Origin: Calditrichota bacterium
Lineage (GTDB): Bacteria; Zhuqueibacterota; Zhuqueibacteria; Residuimicrobiales; Krinioviventaceae
Length of the DNA: 38,415 bases
Assembly (NCBI GenBank): GCA_013152225.1
Contig: JAADGR010000381.1
Location: forward strand, 1-38,415
Direction of reading: 5' to 3'
Positions within the stretch are counted from its first letter, which is position 1. Each line of letters begins with the position of its first letter. This document shows positions 25,823-31,347 of the stretch, piece by piece. A program made the translations under genes and the position numbers. The notes beneath the pieces are model-generated. The model was not told the origin of the DNA. It did not search any database and saw nothing but the letters and a program-made list of their open reading frames with translations.

Positions 25823-26917
25823 TTACTTCATAAACGCCATTTTGCGCGTGTACTTGAAATCATTCACATCTATCGAATAGAGATATGTTCCGGTCGTTAC
25901 GACCTGACCGAAATCGTCGCGTCCATCCCAAACAGCCGAGTATTCGCCGGCAAATTTACTGGTATTCACCAATTGACGTACAAGCTGCCCGCGTATATTA
26001 TAAATAAGCAGCGTCACGTGGCCTTCGTCTTTCAATACATAACGAATGGTCGTCGATGGGTTGAAGGGATTGGGATAGTTTTGCTCAAGGTTATAAAACT
26101 TGGGCGCTGCCATTGTCTCTACTTTTTTCGGCCCATGGAATTGCATCATGCCGTTTTCCGAAACGTCGGCAACCCAGTAAAAGTAGGTTATATTTTCCTG
26201 CACATCGGGGTCTTCCCATTGATAAGAGTGCTTTGATTCGGAATTTCCCGCACCCGGGATCATTTTTGTAGTGACTTGTTTTTTTTCGCCTTTTTCCGTC
26301 AGACTTTTGAAAACATGAAAACCCAGGTTTTGTGTTTCTGATTGGGTCGTCCATGTGAGGATAACATGTCCCGGTCGGGCAGTAATACTGAATGCCGTCA
26401 TCTCGACTGATAAGGAACCCAGTTCTTTTACAGTCCATGTGCCAAAATCTGCTACTTCGCTGTCCGAGTTCTTTATTTCATAAAGGTCGGAATCACCATA
26501 ATAGGCCACACTCTGTCCGTTCACAACCGAGTCATTCCAGGCGCGGACGAAAACTTTTGTCCCGGGGACAAACAACAGAGCGTTTGAAAAATAGGCAGAG
26601 AATTTACCGGAATCCCAATCGGACTCGTTTGGAATCCCATAGCCAATGTGGGATGTCCCAAGAAGGGAATCGTCCACCGTTGTGTGGCCGAGAGAATCTG
26701 CCGGGTCTATCATGCCATTCGGACCGACCCAGATGATTTGAACAAGATCGCCGCTCGACGGATTGCCTTTCAAGTATTCCTGACCACCCAGGTCAAGGAC
26801 GCCGGAACTCGAGTAGGCAATAAATTGTGTAGGAACGAGTTGAGCGTATGCAGGTGAGCCTGACATGATGATCACGGCCATCACCAGCAATATTTGAGTA
26901 ACTTTTTGAATTTTCAT
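25823..26917 (-). CDS. Secreted protein with T9SS type A-like C-terminal sorting domain
   Basis: Signal peptide; C-term NLEQNYPNPFNPSTTIRYVLKDEGHVTLLIYNIRGQLVRQL...GTYLYSIDV; start at MKIQKV with GAGGAGG RBS. Confidence 0.88.
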   Translation of the reverse strand: MKIQKVTQILLVMAVIIMSGSPAYAQLVPTQFIAYSSSGVLDLGGQEYLKGNPSSGDLVQIIWVGPNGMIDPADSLGHTTVDDSLLGTSHIGYGIPNESDWDSGKFSAYFSNALLFVPGTKVFVRAWNDSVVNGQSVAYYGDSDLYEIKNSDSEVADFGTWTVKELGSLSVEMTAFSITARPGHVILTWTTQSETQNLGFHVFKSLTEKGEKKQVTTKMIPGAGNSESKHSYQWEDPDVQENITYFYWVADVSENGMMQFHGPKKVETMAAPKFYNLEQNYPNPFNPSTTIRYVLKDEGHVTLLIYNIRGQLVRQLVNTSKFAGEYSAVWDGRDDFGQVVTTGTYLYSIDVNDFKYTRKMAFMK

Positions 26918-26953
26918 TTTTTCCTCCTCACCAAACTGTTTTATCCGCATCCG

Positions 26954-28237
26954 CTAATTATTTGAATTGGGGTTGGGATAACTCCATTCATTATTCGGAT
27001 TATCGTTTTGCATCCACAAAATATAGCCTTGACCGGGAAGAAAACTCATGGACGAAACACTGACCCCGCTCATTTCCAGCCATTTTCCGCTCATTTCAGA
27101 GTTCCCGTCCTCGTAAAGCCATGCTTTTTCAAAAGTATTATTTTTCCAGGCCATAATTTGGTCTGCCAGAGCACTGATATTACTGCCTGTTACAACATCA
27201 TCTTTGGCCAGTTCGCTGGCATCCAGAGACATTTCTACGGGAAAGGAGGTTCCGATAAAGCTGTAACCCTTGGCCAATGTGACCACACGTTGTGAATCAG
27301 CGCACACAGTACCTGCCACTCGGAGAATTGTATCTGTGCTCGTACTTTGCAGAACAATCCAAAAGGATTCATCGGGTCGGATCAAAGAGGTCGACTCTGC
27401 AGTTCCCCGCATATTGACCCATTTCCCTTCAAGTGAGCCGGAGCCACCTTCGAATAGCCAGGCAGCTTCATATCCTTCGCCATTCCAGACGTATATTTTG
27501 TCCGATAATGCGCTTTGTGTGCTCCCTGTTAACTGTGTTCCGATGACGCTTGTAAGAGTAGAATCATCCGGGATCAGCGGCAAAGAAACCAGGTTGGCGG
27601 ATTTGTTCAGGCCAATGTTGAAGACGCCGACTTTATTATATTCGTGGAGAACGGATCCGCCGCTCAGTGCTTTGAGGATATAATACCTTCCGCTATCGGG
27701 TTTTGTCGGATAGTCCGTATCAGTAAAAGTTGTGGTACCTTCCAGCCGTTCAATTGGAGACGAGGGGGTGAAAAATGGATTGCTGCTGCGGTAAAGTTCA
27801 TACGCATCGGCACTCTGGATAGAAGCCCAATTTAAGCGAATGCTGGTGCCGGTGAAAACCGCGTGTAGTCTGGGAGTCCGTACAATCGCACTGACTTCTG
27901 TGGATGGCGCGCTTTCATTTCCCGATGAATCATAAGCAGTAACAACGAAAAAATAAGTTTTGCCAACGGTCAGGTTGTTTACCTGATAAGCTGTTGTGTC
28001 ACCCACGTCGATTGTTTTTGTATAATTGCTTGATTCCGCCCCATAGTAAAGTTTGTAACCTGCCAGATCGGATTCGGTGTTTGCATCCCAAGTAGCGATT
28101 AATGAACCGGAATAAGCAAACGGCACGGTTATAAAAACCAGAAAAAGCAGGGGGAGAATTGCTGTCACTTTCGAAGCCATTCCCATTCGTTGTTTTAATG
28201 TCGCTCGAAAGTTGCTTGTCTTAATAGTAGTAGTCAT
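26954..28237 (-). CDS. Secreted fibronectin type III protein with duplicated C-terminal module
   Basis: SGSLIATWDANTESDLAGYKLYYG...YFFVVTAYDSSGNESAPS; two modules with AWLxExG...GKWxxM; start at MTTTIKT after AGAGAGGTG RBS. Confidence 0.85.
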   Translation of the reverse strand: MTTTIKTSNFRATLKQRMGMASKVTAILPLLFLVFITVPFAYSGSLIATWDANTESDLAGYKLYYGAESSNYTKTIDVGDTTAYQVNNLTVGKTYFFVVTAYDSSGNESAPSTEVSAIVRTPRLHAVFTGTSIRLNWASIQSADAYELYRSSNPFFTPSSPIERLEGTTTFTDTDYPTKPDSGRYYILKALSGGSVLHEYNKVGVFNIGLNKSANLVSLPLIPDDSTLTSVIGTQLTGSTQSALSDKIYVWNGEGYEAAWLFEGGSGSLEGKWVNMRGTAESTSLIRPDESFWIVLQSTSTDTILRVAGTVCADSQRVVTLAKGYSFIGTSFPVEMSLDASELAKDDVVTGSNISALADQIMAWKNNTFEKAWLYEDGNSEMSGKWLEMSGVSVSSMSFLPGQGYILWMQNDNPNNEWSYPNPNSNN

Positions 28238-28320
28238 CTGCTTCACCTCTCTTGCTATTTTGAGTGTACTCATTATTTTTCCACGTGGTGCTATTCGTAT
28301 TTCCTTACTTTTTTCTCACG

Positions 28321-28363
28321 AAAAAGTCTCTGTCGGGAACCTGACGAATCAGGCCCCCGACAG
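28321..28363 (-). terminator. Candidate intrinsic terminator in EPS operon leader
   Basis: Minus strand CTGTCGGG-gg-CCTGA-ttcg-TCAGG-tt-CCCGACAG-AGAC-TTTTT. Confidence 0.6.
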
Positions 28364-28566
28364 ATGTGTGAGGGAACCATGAGTAGTAAATTCTGTTGTT
28401 GCGCATGAACCATCGATCGTGTCAAAGATTGCTTCGACCGAGCAGGTTCCCTGATAAGAAAAGTCGTACTAAAATTGTTTGGAAAATATTATGAAAGATC
28501 AGCAGGGTTTGCCAGACGGCGGTGGGGATCATCAAATGAAAAATGCCCGCCAATTGCAGCATACCT

Positions 28567-28632
28567 CTCTGTTCTTTCTTCCATGGCCTCTGCTATCATG
28601 TTTGATGACTGGGCGAGTCACATTGACAGCAG
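28567..28632 (+). ncRNA. Structured RNA element copy 1 (paralogous to 29104-29168)
   Basis: CTGCTATCATG-TTTGATGACT-GGGCGAGTC-ACATTGACAGCAG; shared core with copy 2; strand uncertain. Confidence 0.5.
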
Positions 28633-28780
28633 TTCTTCACATTGCTAAATTATATTTATTTCAGGACAAAAAAATCCCGAAAACTGCAACCACCTTTCGT
28701 TTATCCGTGTCCTGTAATCACCTGTACCATTCGCGTCTCCGTAATATCTGCAGTCTTCGGGGAATTTCATTTATCCCTTT

Positions 28781-28796
28781 TGCATCTTCTGTGCCA
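28781..28796 (-). promoter_or_regulatory. Sigma54-type promoter TGGCACAGAAGATGCA
   Basis: GG-N10-GC with TGGCAC-N5-aTGCA, facing the EPS operon, ~540 bp upstream of the FN3 start. Confidence 0.65.
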
Positions 28797-28878
28797 AAAT
28801 TAGATTGACAAGTGTATTAATGATTTATTAGAGATTATTCAAGTCATAAGGCTTTGTTTTAAAAGCTCTTACTTTAAG

Positions 28879-28905
28879 ATTTCAGTGTGCTGAAATAATT
28901 TTTTT
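28879..28905 (+). terminator. Candidate intrinsic terminator
   Basis: ATTTCAG-tgtg-CTGAAAT-aa-TTTTTTT. Confidence 0.5.
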
Positions 28906-29043
28906 AGTAAATAATTTATTGTTAAATTATAGTGGCCTTTAGGTATCGCACACCACACCGTGTTTCCTGAATGTCCCACAAATGGAACGAAAGTAAAATT
29001 TTGCGTATTAATCGAAAAAAGTTTCATTGAATTAACTTTATAG

Positions 29044-29072
29044 TTGACAAATGGAAAACAAATAATTATATT
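29044..29072 (+). promoter_or_regulatory. Sigma70-type promoter TTGACA-N17-TATATT
   Basis: Consensus -35, 17-nt spacer, 5/6 -10 match. Confidence 0.7.
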
Positions 29073-29078
29073 GATAGT

Positions 29079-29176
29079 AATGCCCGCATTGGAGTTATTT
29101 CAACTCTGTTTATCTCTTGCGTGGCCAAAGCTACCAGTTTTGATGACTTGGGCGAGTCGGCTGGTAGCTTTTTTTT
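29079..29176 (+). ncRNA. Candidate ~100-nt small RNA, copy 2 of structured element
   Basis: Promoter just upstream; 5' hairpin GAGTT-atttc-AACTC; GCTACCAG..GACTtgggcgAGTC..CTGGTAGC then T8. Confidence 0.65.
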
Positions 29177-29178
29177 CA

Positions 29179-29604
29179 TTAAAACACTGGGGCCGGAGCC
29201 AAATTCCGTTCAATAATTGTTTCTGTTGCCGATACAATTGCGTCTGTTTCAGAAGTAGAGATGGGCTTGAAAGCCTGGTAGTTTATCCCTAATTCTGCTG
29301 CTACTTTGCGAATTCGATGATTGAAATCGTCTGTGATGAGAATGACCGGCAGGCGGGGACGTAATTTTTTAACGACCGGCAGAACTTCCACTCCCATAAT
29401 GCCTGCCAAATCGATATCCATGATCAGCAAATCGATATCGTGATCCAGGATTTTAACGAGTACGTCAATGCCTCTCTGAACTACATAGATTTTGTAATTT
29501 CCTTTACCCAATTTATTTTTGAGCGCTTCTACCGTCCGTGAGTCGAGGGTCCCAATTACTATTTTTTTCGTCGATTTCGTCTCTGAATTTGATTGCTGTA
29601 TCAT
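29179..29604 (-). CDS. Single-domain response regulator (receiver)
   Basis: DLLIMDIDLAGIMGVEVLP, VILITDDF, YQAFKPIS. Confidence 0.82.
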   Translation of the reverse strand: MIQQSNSETKSTKKIVIGTLDSRTVEALKNKLGKGNYKIYVVQRGIDVLVKILDHDIDLLIMDIDLAGIMGVEVLPVVKKLRPRLPVILITDDFNHRIRKVAAELGINYQAFKPISTSETDAIVSATETIIERNLAPAPVF

Positions 29605-29919: not shown

Positions 29920-31347
29920 TTAATTGTCTATTTTCATCTTGCGGAATTCGATTCCACGATTATCGATCAACCGATAAATCGTTTTTCGGTTGAGTCCTGC
30001 GGCATCCGCGACTTTTGTAACATTGTTGTCATACTTTTCCAATAGTGTTTCGATATATTGTTTTTCCCACGTTTGCAATAATCTTTCTTTAGATGTTTTG
30101 AAATCCAATTCCGCGTTCGTGTCGACAAAGACTCTTTTTGATGTTGGCCGTAATCTTTCGGGCAAATCTTCCGGACGAACAATCGGACTATTCGAGAGAG
30201 CAATAATATGCTCGATTACACTTTCAAGTTCTCTGACATTGCCCGGCCACGGATATTGCTGCAATATTAATAATGTCTCATTTGAAAATTTATCAATTTT
30301 AATGAGGCCGCGGCTATTGGACTTTTTCAGGAAATGATAGGCCAAAACGGGAATGTCTTCTTTCCTCTCCCGCAATGGAGGAACATGCAAGCGAATCACA
30401 TTGAGGCGGAAATAAAGATCTTCACGCATCATGCCTGATTTAACCATTTCTTCCGGGTCTTTATTTGTAGCGCTGATAATGCGTACATCCACTTCGCGTT
30501 CTTTTACACTACCGAGACGTCGAACCCTGCGATCATTTAGAACGCGCAAAAGTTTGTGCTGCATTTCCAGGCTTACTTCGGCGATTTCATCCAGAAAAAT
30601 TGTTCCCCTGTCTGCAGCTTCGAACAGTCCCTGTTTGTCTGCATTTGCCCCGGTAAAAGTACCTTTTACATGACCAAATAATTCCCTTTCCAGCAAATGC
30701 TCGGGAAGCGCGCTGACCAGGACAGGAACGAAACTCTCGTCTTTCCTCTGGCTGTAATAATGAATGCCTCTGGCAATAACATCTTTACCTGTTCCCGTTT
30801 CTCCGGTAATGAAAACATTTGTAATGGTCCGGGCCACGCGCTTGGCCTTTTCGAACACATCACAAATTGGCGGACTGGTGCCGACGGCTCCGTAAAATCC
30901 ACCATCGTCCGCAATATTGACTTTACCGCGAAGATACTCGTTTTCTTGCTGCATTCGGGCATATTTAAATGCCCGTTCAATGGGGAGCAAAATATCATGG
31001 CTGATTTGAACTTTTTGGATGAAATCAAATGCGCCCTTTTTAAAAGCCTCTACCGCGACTGGCACCGTTCCATAAGCGGTATACAGCAAAATGACTGCAT
31101 CCGGATCTATCTGCCGGGCTTCTTGTAAAAATTCGATTCCTGCTAACGGTGTTTCCATCTTGAGATCTGTCAGAACGACAAGGGGTTTTTTCTCCTTGAA
31201 GACCTTTAAACCCTCTGCTTTATTATGAGCTGTCAGACAGCTATAATGTGAACTTTTGAGAAGGTTAACGATAGATTCCAGCACTGTTAATTGATCATCA
31301 ATGACCAGAATCTTGCCGTCATTGTTGTTCCGCTTTCCTTTTTCCAT
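29920..31347 (-). CDS. NtrC-type sigma54-dependent response regulator
   Basis: Receiver + AAA+ (FITGETGTGKDVIARGIHYYS, GTFTGAN, FLDEIAEVSLEMQHKLLRVL) + Fis-type HTH. Confidence 0.95.
   Translation of the reverse strand: MEKGKRNNNDGKILVIDDQLTVLESIVNLLKSSHYSCLTAHNKAEGLKVFKEKKPLVVLTDLKMETPLAGIEFLQEARQIDPDAVILLYTAYGTVPVAVEAFKKGAFDFIQKVQISHDILLPIERAFKYARMQQENEYLRGKVNIADDGGFYGAVGTSPPICDVFEKAKRVARTITNVFITGETGTGKDVIARGIHYYSQRKDESFVPVLVSALPEHLLERELFGHVKGTFTGANADKQGLFEAADRGTIFLDEIAEVSLEMQHKLLRVLNDRRVRRLGSVKEREVDVRIISATNKDPEEMVKSGMMREDLYFRLNVIRLHVPPLRERKEDIPVLAYHFLKKSNSRGLIKIDKFSNETLLILQQYPWPGNVRELESVIEHIIALSNSPIVRPEDLPERLRPTSKRVFVDTNAELDFKTSKERLLQTWEKQYIETLLEKYDNNVTKVADAAGLNRKTIYRLIDNRGIEFRKMKIDN

Follow-up and report, generated by a model that had tools for sequence, protein, structure and literature searches.

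A putative antisense small RNA family of Zhuqueibacterota and a matching hairpin in the leader of an exopolysaccharide operon

We examined a stretch of 38,415 nucleotides (the window) from a 4.9-Mb genome assembly (G000), using for comparison a sample of 82 assembled genomes, several of them metagenome bins, of the host phylum, which is probably KSB1/Zhuqueibacterota. A sister species is represented by G001; the public record of one of its contigs (L034) is titled Actinomycetota, with content that is KSB1-like. A first-pass annotation of the window had noticed two related plus-strand elements that share CTCTGTT, TGGCC and TTTGATGACT[T]GGGCGAGTC, and these are present in the sequence at the positions it gave. 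One (copy 1) lies upstream of a minus-strand exopolysaccharide (EPS) operon and the other (copy 2) beside a response-regulator gene, among the following features.

26954-28237, minus: first gene of the EPS operon, a fibronectin type III protein (Pfam fn3, 4e-8)
28317-28364, minus: terminator-like 16-bp hairpin (28364-28329), then GACTTTTT (T5); z -5.9
28540-28640, minus: copy 1, the complement of the small RNA (sRNA) in the EPS leader, with a leader-strand hairpin at 28632-28590 and the anti-core at 28619-28601
28668-28763, minus: leader hairpin beginning near +8, then U7 (RNAfold -30 kcal/mol, z -2.5); also in G001
28781-28796, minus: sigma54 promoter of the EPS operon, TTGGCACAGAAGATGC, predicted +1 at about 28770
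29044-29072, plus: sigma70-type promoter, TTGACA (29044-29049), N17, TATATT (29067-29072), with 11 of 12 consensus bases
29079-29176, plus: predicted sRNA (copy 2) of about 98 nt, with a fold z-score of -3.85, a covariance-model match and covariation
29139-29158, plus: conserved loop TTTGATGACTTGGGCGAGTC, comprising a 5'-side internal loop, a short upper stem GACUU/GAGUC and an apical GGGC
29179-29604, minus: receiver-only response regulator (Pfam Response_reg, 1.5e-12), its stop codon abutting the sRNA 3' end
29920-31347, minus: sigma54-dependent response regulator, candidate activator of the EPS promoter (Pfam Sigma54_activat, 6e-65)

The promoter ahead of copy 2 is as the first-pass annotation described it, and the RNA predicted to start from it, at about 29079, would fold into a 5' hairpin (29082-29125) followed by a terminator part, AAAGCTACCAG...CTGGTAGCTTTTTTTT, with the terminator hairpin at 29127-29171 and a U-tract at 29169-29176. 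The loop of the terminator hairpin contains GATGACTTGGGCGAGTC, and in the structure prediction UUUGA and GGGC of this loop are unpaired. An own promoter and an intrinsic terminator, by which trans-acting sRNA genes are recognised, are thus both predicted from the sequence at copy 2. The same gene is found in three further genera of the family (G003, G004 and G005). In G003 and G005 the promoter has the hexamers and spacing seen in the window (TTGACA-N17-TATATT), with the hairpin GCTACCAG/CTGGTAGC and the loop ATGACTTGGGCGAGTC, and in G004 it reads TTGACA-N17-TAAATT, with a different stem (GGCCGCCGGT/ACCGGCGGCC), the loop ATGACTTGGCGAGTC and a weaker T-tract. Across G000, G003, G004 and G005 the promoter, 5' hairpin and terminator loop are kept while the intervening sequence has diverged; G001, which is 97% identical to the window at the sRNA locus, adds little information. 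The order of response-regulator and sRNA genes is also the same in G003, G004 and G005 and, with a more diverged regulator, in other families. The copy-2 sRNA would be fully antisense to any response-regulator transcript that passes its stop codon.

To follow the element through the phylum we used two covariance models, one built from copy-2 sequences (R1) and a broader one (R2), a kind of search the first-pass annotation had suggested. At copy 2 itself the match spans 29112-29178 with E-values from 2e-20 to 3e-16 in the genome. At E<1e-6, R2 finds the element in 18 of the 82 genomes, representing 15 genera and 9 families; one of these genomes, G067, falls outside the class. A typical member has a 5' hairpin and then a terminator hairpin with a lower stem of 9-13 bp, a 5'-side internal loop of 4-6 nt, the upper stem GACUU/GAGUC and an apical loop of 3-4 nt, with a U-tract after the hairpin. 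Across 21 sequences, paired bases fill 98.1% of the stem cells, two-sided changes occur in 11 of 15 pairs, and none of 500 shuffles reached the covariation score. As the annotation had supposed, the element lies outside the known Rfam families: Rfam 15 gave no match at E<=1 in the window between 24000 and 33000, nor at the sRNA in the loci of 15 relatives; searches covering 18 relatives' loci gave nothing at the element. Comparison thus supports the reading of copy 2 as an sRNA gene of a family missing from Rfam, and its predicted sigma70 promoter would make expression constitutive. The counts exclude weak matches (R1, 20-25 bits: L121-L126), most of which are ordinary terminators, and core matches in G026, G029, G036, G051:C258 and G052 were set aside as chance, their surroundings having no family hairpin.

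The layout seen in the window recurs. In G011, G015, G017, G045 and G051 the sRNA is antisense and directly follows a gene for a receiver-only response regulator (identity to the window's regulator is 29% in both other-family cases compared), with a sigma54 activator gene adjoining and, where the contig goes on, EPS or PEGA-domain genes; sigma54-type promoters precede the receiver-only regulator in G015 and G045. Elsewhere the sRNA is antisense within an EPS operon (G012, G019) or antisense and upstream of a short PEGA-like gene (G016, G020). Promoter scores are modest at several of the loci in other families. A third, more distant member in G000 (C14:6982-7046; L169 1983-2047, minus) is antisense and upstream of an OMPP1/FadL-like gene and a carboxypeptidase-regulatory-domain-like gene; it is conserved in G001, and similar members lie upstream of outer-membrane-protein genes in G013, G030, G045, G057 and G058. 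We also observed, in other families, a sub-variant with a GGCGGCGCUC-type loop near outer-membrane-protein-like genes (L116, L118, L119, L111, L126).

Copy 1 lies, as described in the first-pass annotation, within the leader that runs from the sigma54 promoter (28796-28781, minus) to the EPS start codon at 28237. The length of about 65 nt that it gave to each element is too short: AATGCCCGC is common to both copies and the homology extends into the sRNA 5' hairpin, so that copy 1 occupies about 28540-28640 and the sRNA 29079-29176. A repeat search aligned 28572-28613 with 29110-29151 at 74% identity over 42 ungapped nt, and by pattern count the whole G000 assembly has just two instances of the exact core TTTGATGACT[T]GGGCGAGTC. 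Moreover, R1, which was made from copy-2 sequences alone, recovers copy 1 (28574-28640) with E=0.0066 across the whole genome. Since that model contained no copy-1 sequence, the similarity of the copies is not fortuitous, and together with the pattern counts it rules out a chance origin of the repeat.

Within the leader, the copy 1 hairpin has a lower fold energy on the leader strand (-16.2 kcal/mol) than on the other strand (-12.9 kcal/mol). The promoter motif TTTGGCAY, with GC at -12, is conserved before the EPS gene in seven genomes of the family. The hairpin at 28668-28763 is closed by CCCGAAGACTGCA/TGCAGTTTTCGGG with U7 directly after it; it has no Rfam match, and it is possibly an attenuator or an unknown riboswitch-like element. 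The terminator-like hairpin at 28364-28329, which follows copy 1 and precedes the EPS start codon, is likewise present in G001 and was seen only in this genus. The likely start codon at 28237 is preceded by a Shine-Dalgarno-like AGAGAGGTG, the longest reading frame beginning at 28273. A leader peptide running rightward from the end of copy 1 (minus strand) was considered and rejected, because it is not conserved and a 1-nt insertion in G001 shifts its frame. A promoter-like match on the plus strand (TTGACA-17-TAAATT, 28623-28651, matching the consensus at 10 of 12 positions, with TG preceding the second hexamer) overlaps the end of copy 1 and would fire away from it through the sigma54 promoter, giving a transcript antisense to the leader 5' end; it was not seen in G004 or G005 and may be due to chance. 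Upstream of the sigma54 promoter, TGTCCC/GGGACA half-sites recur among genomes of the family as candidate activator sites (window 28900-29000; L071/L072/L073/L074). The EPS-operon gene at 25823-26950 (minus) carries a type IX secretion (Por_Secre_tail/FlgD_ig) C-terminal domain.

The first-pass annotation had held that absence of the motif near the EPS loci of close relatives would count against its proposal, and the motif is present there. In G000, G001, G004 and G005 the stretch from the conserved sigma54 promoter to the first EPS gene contains a second element, always in the orientation opposite to EPS, with its core near +150, +151, +26 and +32 of the leader, respectively. It is upstream of the start codon by 330-395 nt in G000 and by about 110-190 nt in G004 and G005. 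G002, G006 and G008 keep the response regulator, the sigma54 promoter and the EPS gene and have neither copy. Copy 1 is thus found in 4/4 sRNA-bearing family genomes with a readable leader vs 0/3 genomes without the sRNA (p=0.029, for a small set of related genomes). The sRNA is also present in G003, where the contig stops short of the EPS side and no orthologue of the EPS gene turned up.

Second copies ahead of EPS or sugar-uptake genes also occur in two further families. In G016 (C313) and G020 (C6:86941) a polysaccharide deacetylase/glycosyltransferase operon has a nearly full-length second copy in its leader, in antisense orientation, another in G020 (C6:309908) adjoins an SLBB export gene, and in G050 a LacI gene is followed in turn by the antisense sRNA, the second copy and a GlcU-type sugar symporter. 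The combination of a regulator, the sRNA and an operon with a matching leader is therefore not restricted to the window's family.

The two copies within a genome change together. The same G has been lost from both copies of G004 (TTGGCGAG), both copies of G005 read CCGAGATGACTTGGGCGAG and both of G000 read TTTGATGACT(T)GGGCGAGTC, and the internal loop is common to both copies within G000, as it is within G005. Copy 1 of G004 and copy 1 of G005 have a flank in common, TTCTCCCAG(G)CGACCC, and this points to a single ancient duplication with later co-evolution or gene conversion. The core, GACTTGGGCGAGTC, is quasi-palindromic, and its dyad symmetry and its standing as the best conserved part would suit a site for a DNA- or RNA-binding protein, present in two places for that reason. 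We regard this as highly improbable, as GACTTNGSCGAGTC matches 17 times in 14 genomes, each time within one of these hairpin elements, the flanking stems covary although DNA binding would not call for this, and the two transcripts read the copies in opposite senses.

We then compared predicted pairing within and between genomes. Net cofold energies are -27 to -69 kcal/mol for own-genome pairs vs -2 to -19 kcal/mol for unrelated pairs; copy 1 with its own sRNA gives -46.8 kcal/mol vs -10 to -17 kcal/mol with the second copies of other genomes. Own-genome pairing also beats shuffled targets, and G016 and G020, which belong to one genus, are interchangeable. Duplication within a genome would by itself raise own-genome pairing, so the cofold result is not independent of common descent.

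Another way to view the relationship between the copies is to ask on which strand each is maintained as an RNA. For this comparison "second" copies were defined, after the first searches, by position, missing promoter and poor U-tract, and some copies are related to one another. The sRNA strand gives the better fold in 16 of 18 primary copies and the leader strand in 6 of 7 second copies (Fisher p=0.001 for the contrast), the exception among second copies being G020:C19, which prefers the sRNA strand. Stem G.U:A.C pairs, counted on the sRNA strand, number 10:1 in primary and 3:8 in second copies (p=0.0075). If copy 1 acts as leader RNA, its structure is expected to be kept up on the leader strand, and that preference is what we observe. 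The primary-copy wobble bias also speaks against the element being a unit of the sense strand only, acting as terminator or attenuator both past the response regulator and within leaders, with the antisense promoter and U-tract coincidental. A T-rich stretch does follow the complement of the 5' hairpin on the sense strand at several loci in other families, but it is missing at copy 2 of G000, G004 and G005, where the sRNA-strand promoter is conserved. Sense-strand termination as a general function was rejected, being inconsistent from locus to locus, and we consider a sense-strand role of this kind very unlikely.

The strand preference also bears on whether copy 1 might be a second, perhaps decaying, paralogous sRNA gene on the plus strand whose pairing with the EPS leader is incidental. 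The homology does cover the entire sRNA beyond the loop, some T-rich sequence lies 3' of the hairpin in copy 1 of G005 and G004, and neutral decay predicts equal G.U and A.C, with which 3:8 taken alone is compatible. However, the second copies lack the sRNA's promoter, with nothing convincing where one would be expected, and lack a good terminator, their U-tracts being poor, yet they keep the loop and the pairing (mismatches other than G.U/A.C in 0 of 80 stem pairs). Against a paralogous gene, too, are the better folding of the leader strand in most second copies, the deletion common to both G004 copies, and a placement with respect to the sigma54 promoter, in position as in orientation, that is constant in three genera. 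We therefore judge it unlikely, and prefer to see in copy 1 a leader-strand target hairpin that would derive from a duplicate of the sRNA locus.

Taken as a whole, an antisense sRNA gene at 29079-29176 (plus), with copy 1 as its matching target hairpin in the EPS leader and a mainly negative outcome, is the probable reading of the locus. That the sRNA could pair with the EPS leader was the central proposal of the first-pass annotation, and comparison lends it good support through the sRNA gene, the leader complement and the co-variation of the copies; the hairpins flanking copy 1, the antisense layout at the response regulator and the phylum-wide family go beyond that annotation. The sRNA very probably pairs with EPS messages, as far as genome comparison can indicate. 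The loops of the sRNA hairpin and the leader hairpin are complementary in sequence and predicted fold, as kissing loops require: the unpaired UUUGA and GGGC of the sRNA match AUCAAA and GCCC, predicted to be unpaired in the leader hairpin, although much of the loop sits in a weak upper stem in both partners. We suggest that both RNAs are made and meet, that pairing would be nucleated at these positions and extend over most of about 100 nt, and that the duplex would form on the nascent leader.

The consequences for the EPS operon can be considered in the light of where copy 1 lies. Its distance upstream of the start codon makes direct ribosome blocking unlikely, and its place between two terminator-like hairpins in this genus (28763-28668 and 28364-28317) makes altered termination or decay likeliest. 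The outcome would be mainly negative, through premature termination at 28364-28317 or decay, in which case the sRNA would set a threshold for sigma54-induced EPS transcription to exceed. By analogy with DonS and FopS (PMC7366714, PMC11697453), a negative effect on EPS is more likely than a positive one. The distance from the start codon would also suit the leader being a decoy, such that firing of the sigma54 promoter lets copy 1 titrate the sRNA and free its other targets, with EPS itself uncontrolled. A candidate for such a freed target is the 3' end of the response-regulator mRNA, where the closest complement of the sRNA lies just past the stop codon. The second copies of other families, however, also sit in leaders of polysaccharide and sugar genes, and control of those genes fits at least equally well; a pure decoy seems rather unlikely to us.

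Plasmid copy-number control offers a precedent for the contact between hairpins that we propose. In ColE1 RNAI, pMV158 RNAII and the pT181/pIP501 type, a short antisense RNA has stable hairpins whose loops match those of the target leader, and binding can start by loop contact. The window sRNA resembles these in having hairpin loops complementary to leader hairpin loops, and differs in being chromosomal, tied to EPS and two-component genes, and encoded apart from its target. Qrr-type sRNAs likewise belong to sigma54/response-regulator circuits; those sRNAs are themselves sigma54-driven, whereas the window sRNA has a sigma70 promoter and its target is sigma54-driven.

Closer in setting are the DonS-type sRNAs of Bacteroides polysaccharide utilisation loci, antisense RNAs of about 78-128 nt that reportedly reduce expression of the gene they face (PMC7366714). 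Members of the window family are also antisense beside polysaccharide genes, either in the interval from response regulator to EPS genes or within EPS operons, and the C14 member and its relatives are antisense upstream of outer-membrane-protein genes. DonS, compared here by description only, faces susC (glycan uptake), whereas the window sRNA has a response regulator on one side and an EPS biosynthesis operon on the other, with a second antisense copy in a leader under another promoter. No susC homologue faces the sRNA, copy 2 facing the receiver-domain gene and the EPS operon and the C14 member the OMPP1/FadL-like gene. The FopS/GibS sRNAs of Bacteroides thetaiotaomicron form a multi-copy family with a Rho-independent terminator that acts on polysaccharide-related operons (PMC11697453), and the window family is also multi-copy, terminator-bearing and linked to such operons. 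FopS, however, has a single-stranded 5' seed before its terminator hairpin and binds near start codons; no such seed is apparent in the window family, a 5' hairpin being predicted in nearly all members, and its pairing would be by the terminator-hairpin loop, with a target site that is a copy of its own locus.

If these proposals are correct, the element represents an sRNA family that is widely conserved yet previously undescribed, in a candidate phylum whose sRNAs are unreported in the literature we searched (they are unmentioned in the description of KSB1/Zhuqueibacterota, PMC11683472), and it would add a layer to sigma54/two-component control of exopolysaccharide. The role in cis on the response-regulator transcript is probably the older one. 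Tentatively, and with somewhat less confidence than an even chance would warrant, we suggest that the sRNA began as such a cis regulator and gained trans targets when its locus was copied into other leaders and the copies lost promoter and terminator. The copied loci would then retain only the leader-strand hairpin and loop complementarity, so that a regulon would arise through duplication of the sRNA gene into its targets, and this may have happened independently in several families of one uncultured phylum. Duplication of an sRNA's own gene, antisense, into other leaders would thus be a testable route to new trans targets.

Two further observations concern leaders. The leaders of several genes in G016 and G020 contain CCACGCC...GTGAGG(A/T)CAGACGCAGC upstream of sRNA-complementary hairpins (L148 2310-2350, plus; L146 520-570, plus; L147 2720-2640, minus; L108 1800-1750, minus); this motif has no Rfam match and is possibly a second shared leader element. 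A possible extra target, not found in G000 and left aside here, lies on contig C451 of G001, where a 16-nt anti-core with one G.U is located about 40 nt upstream of a 2Fe-2S-type gene.
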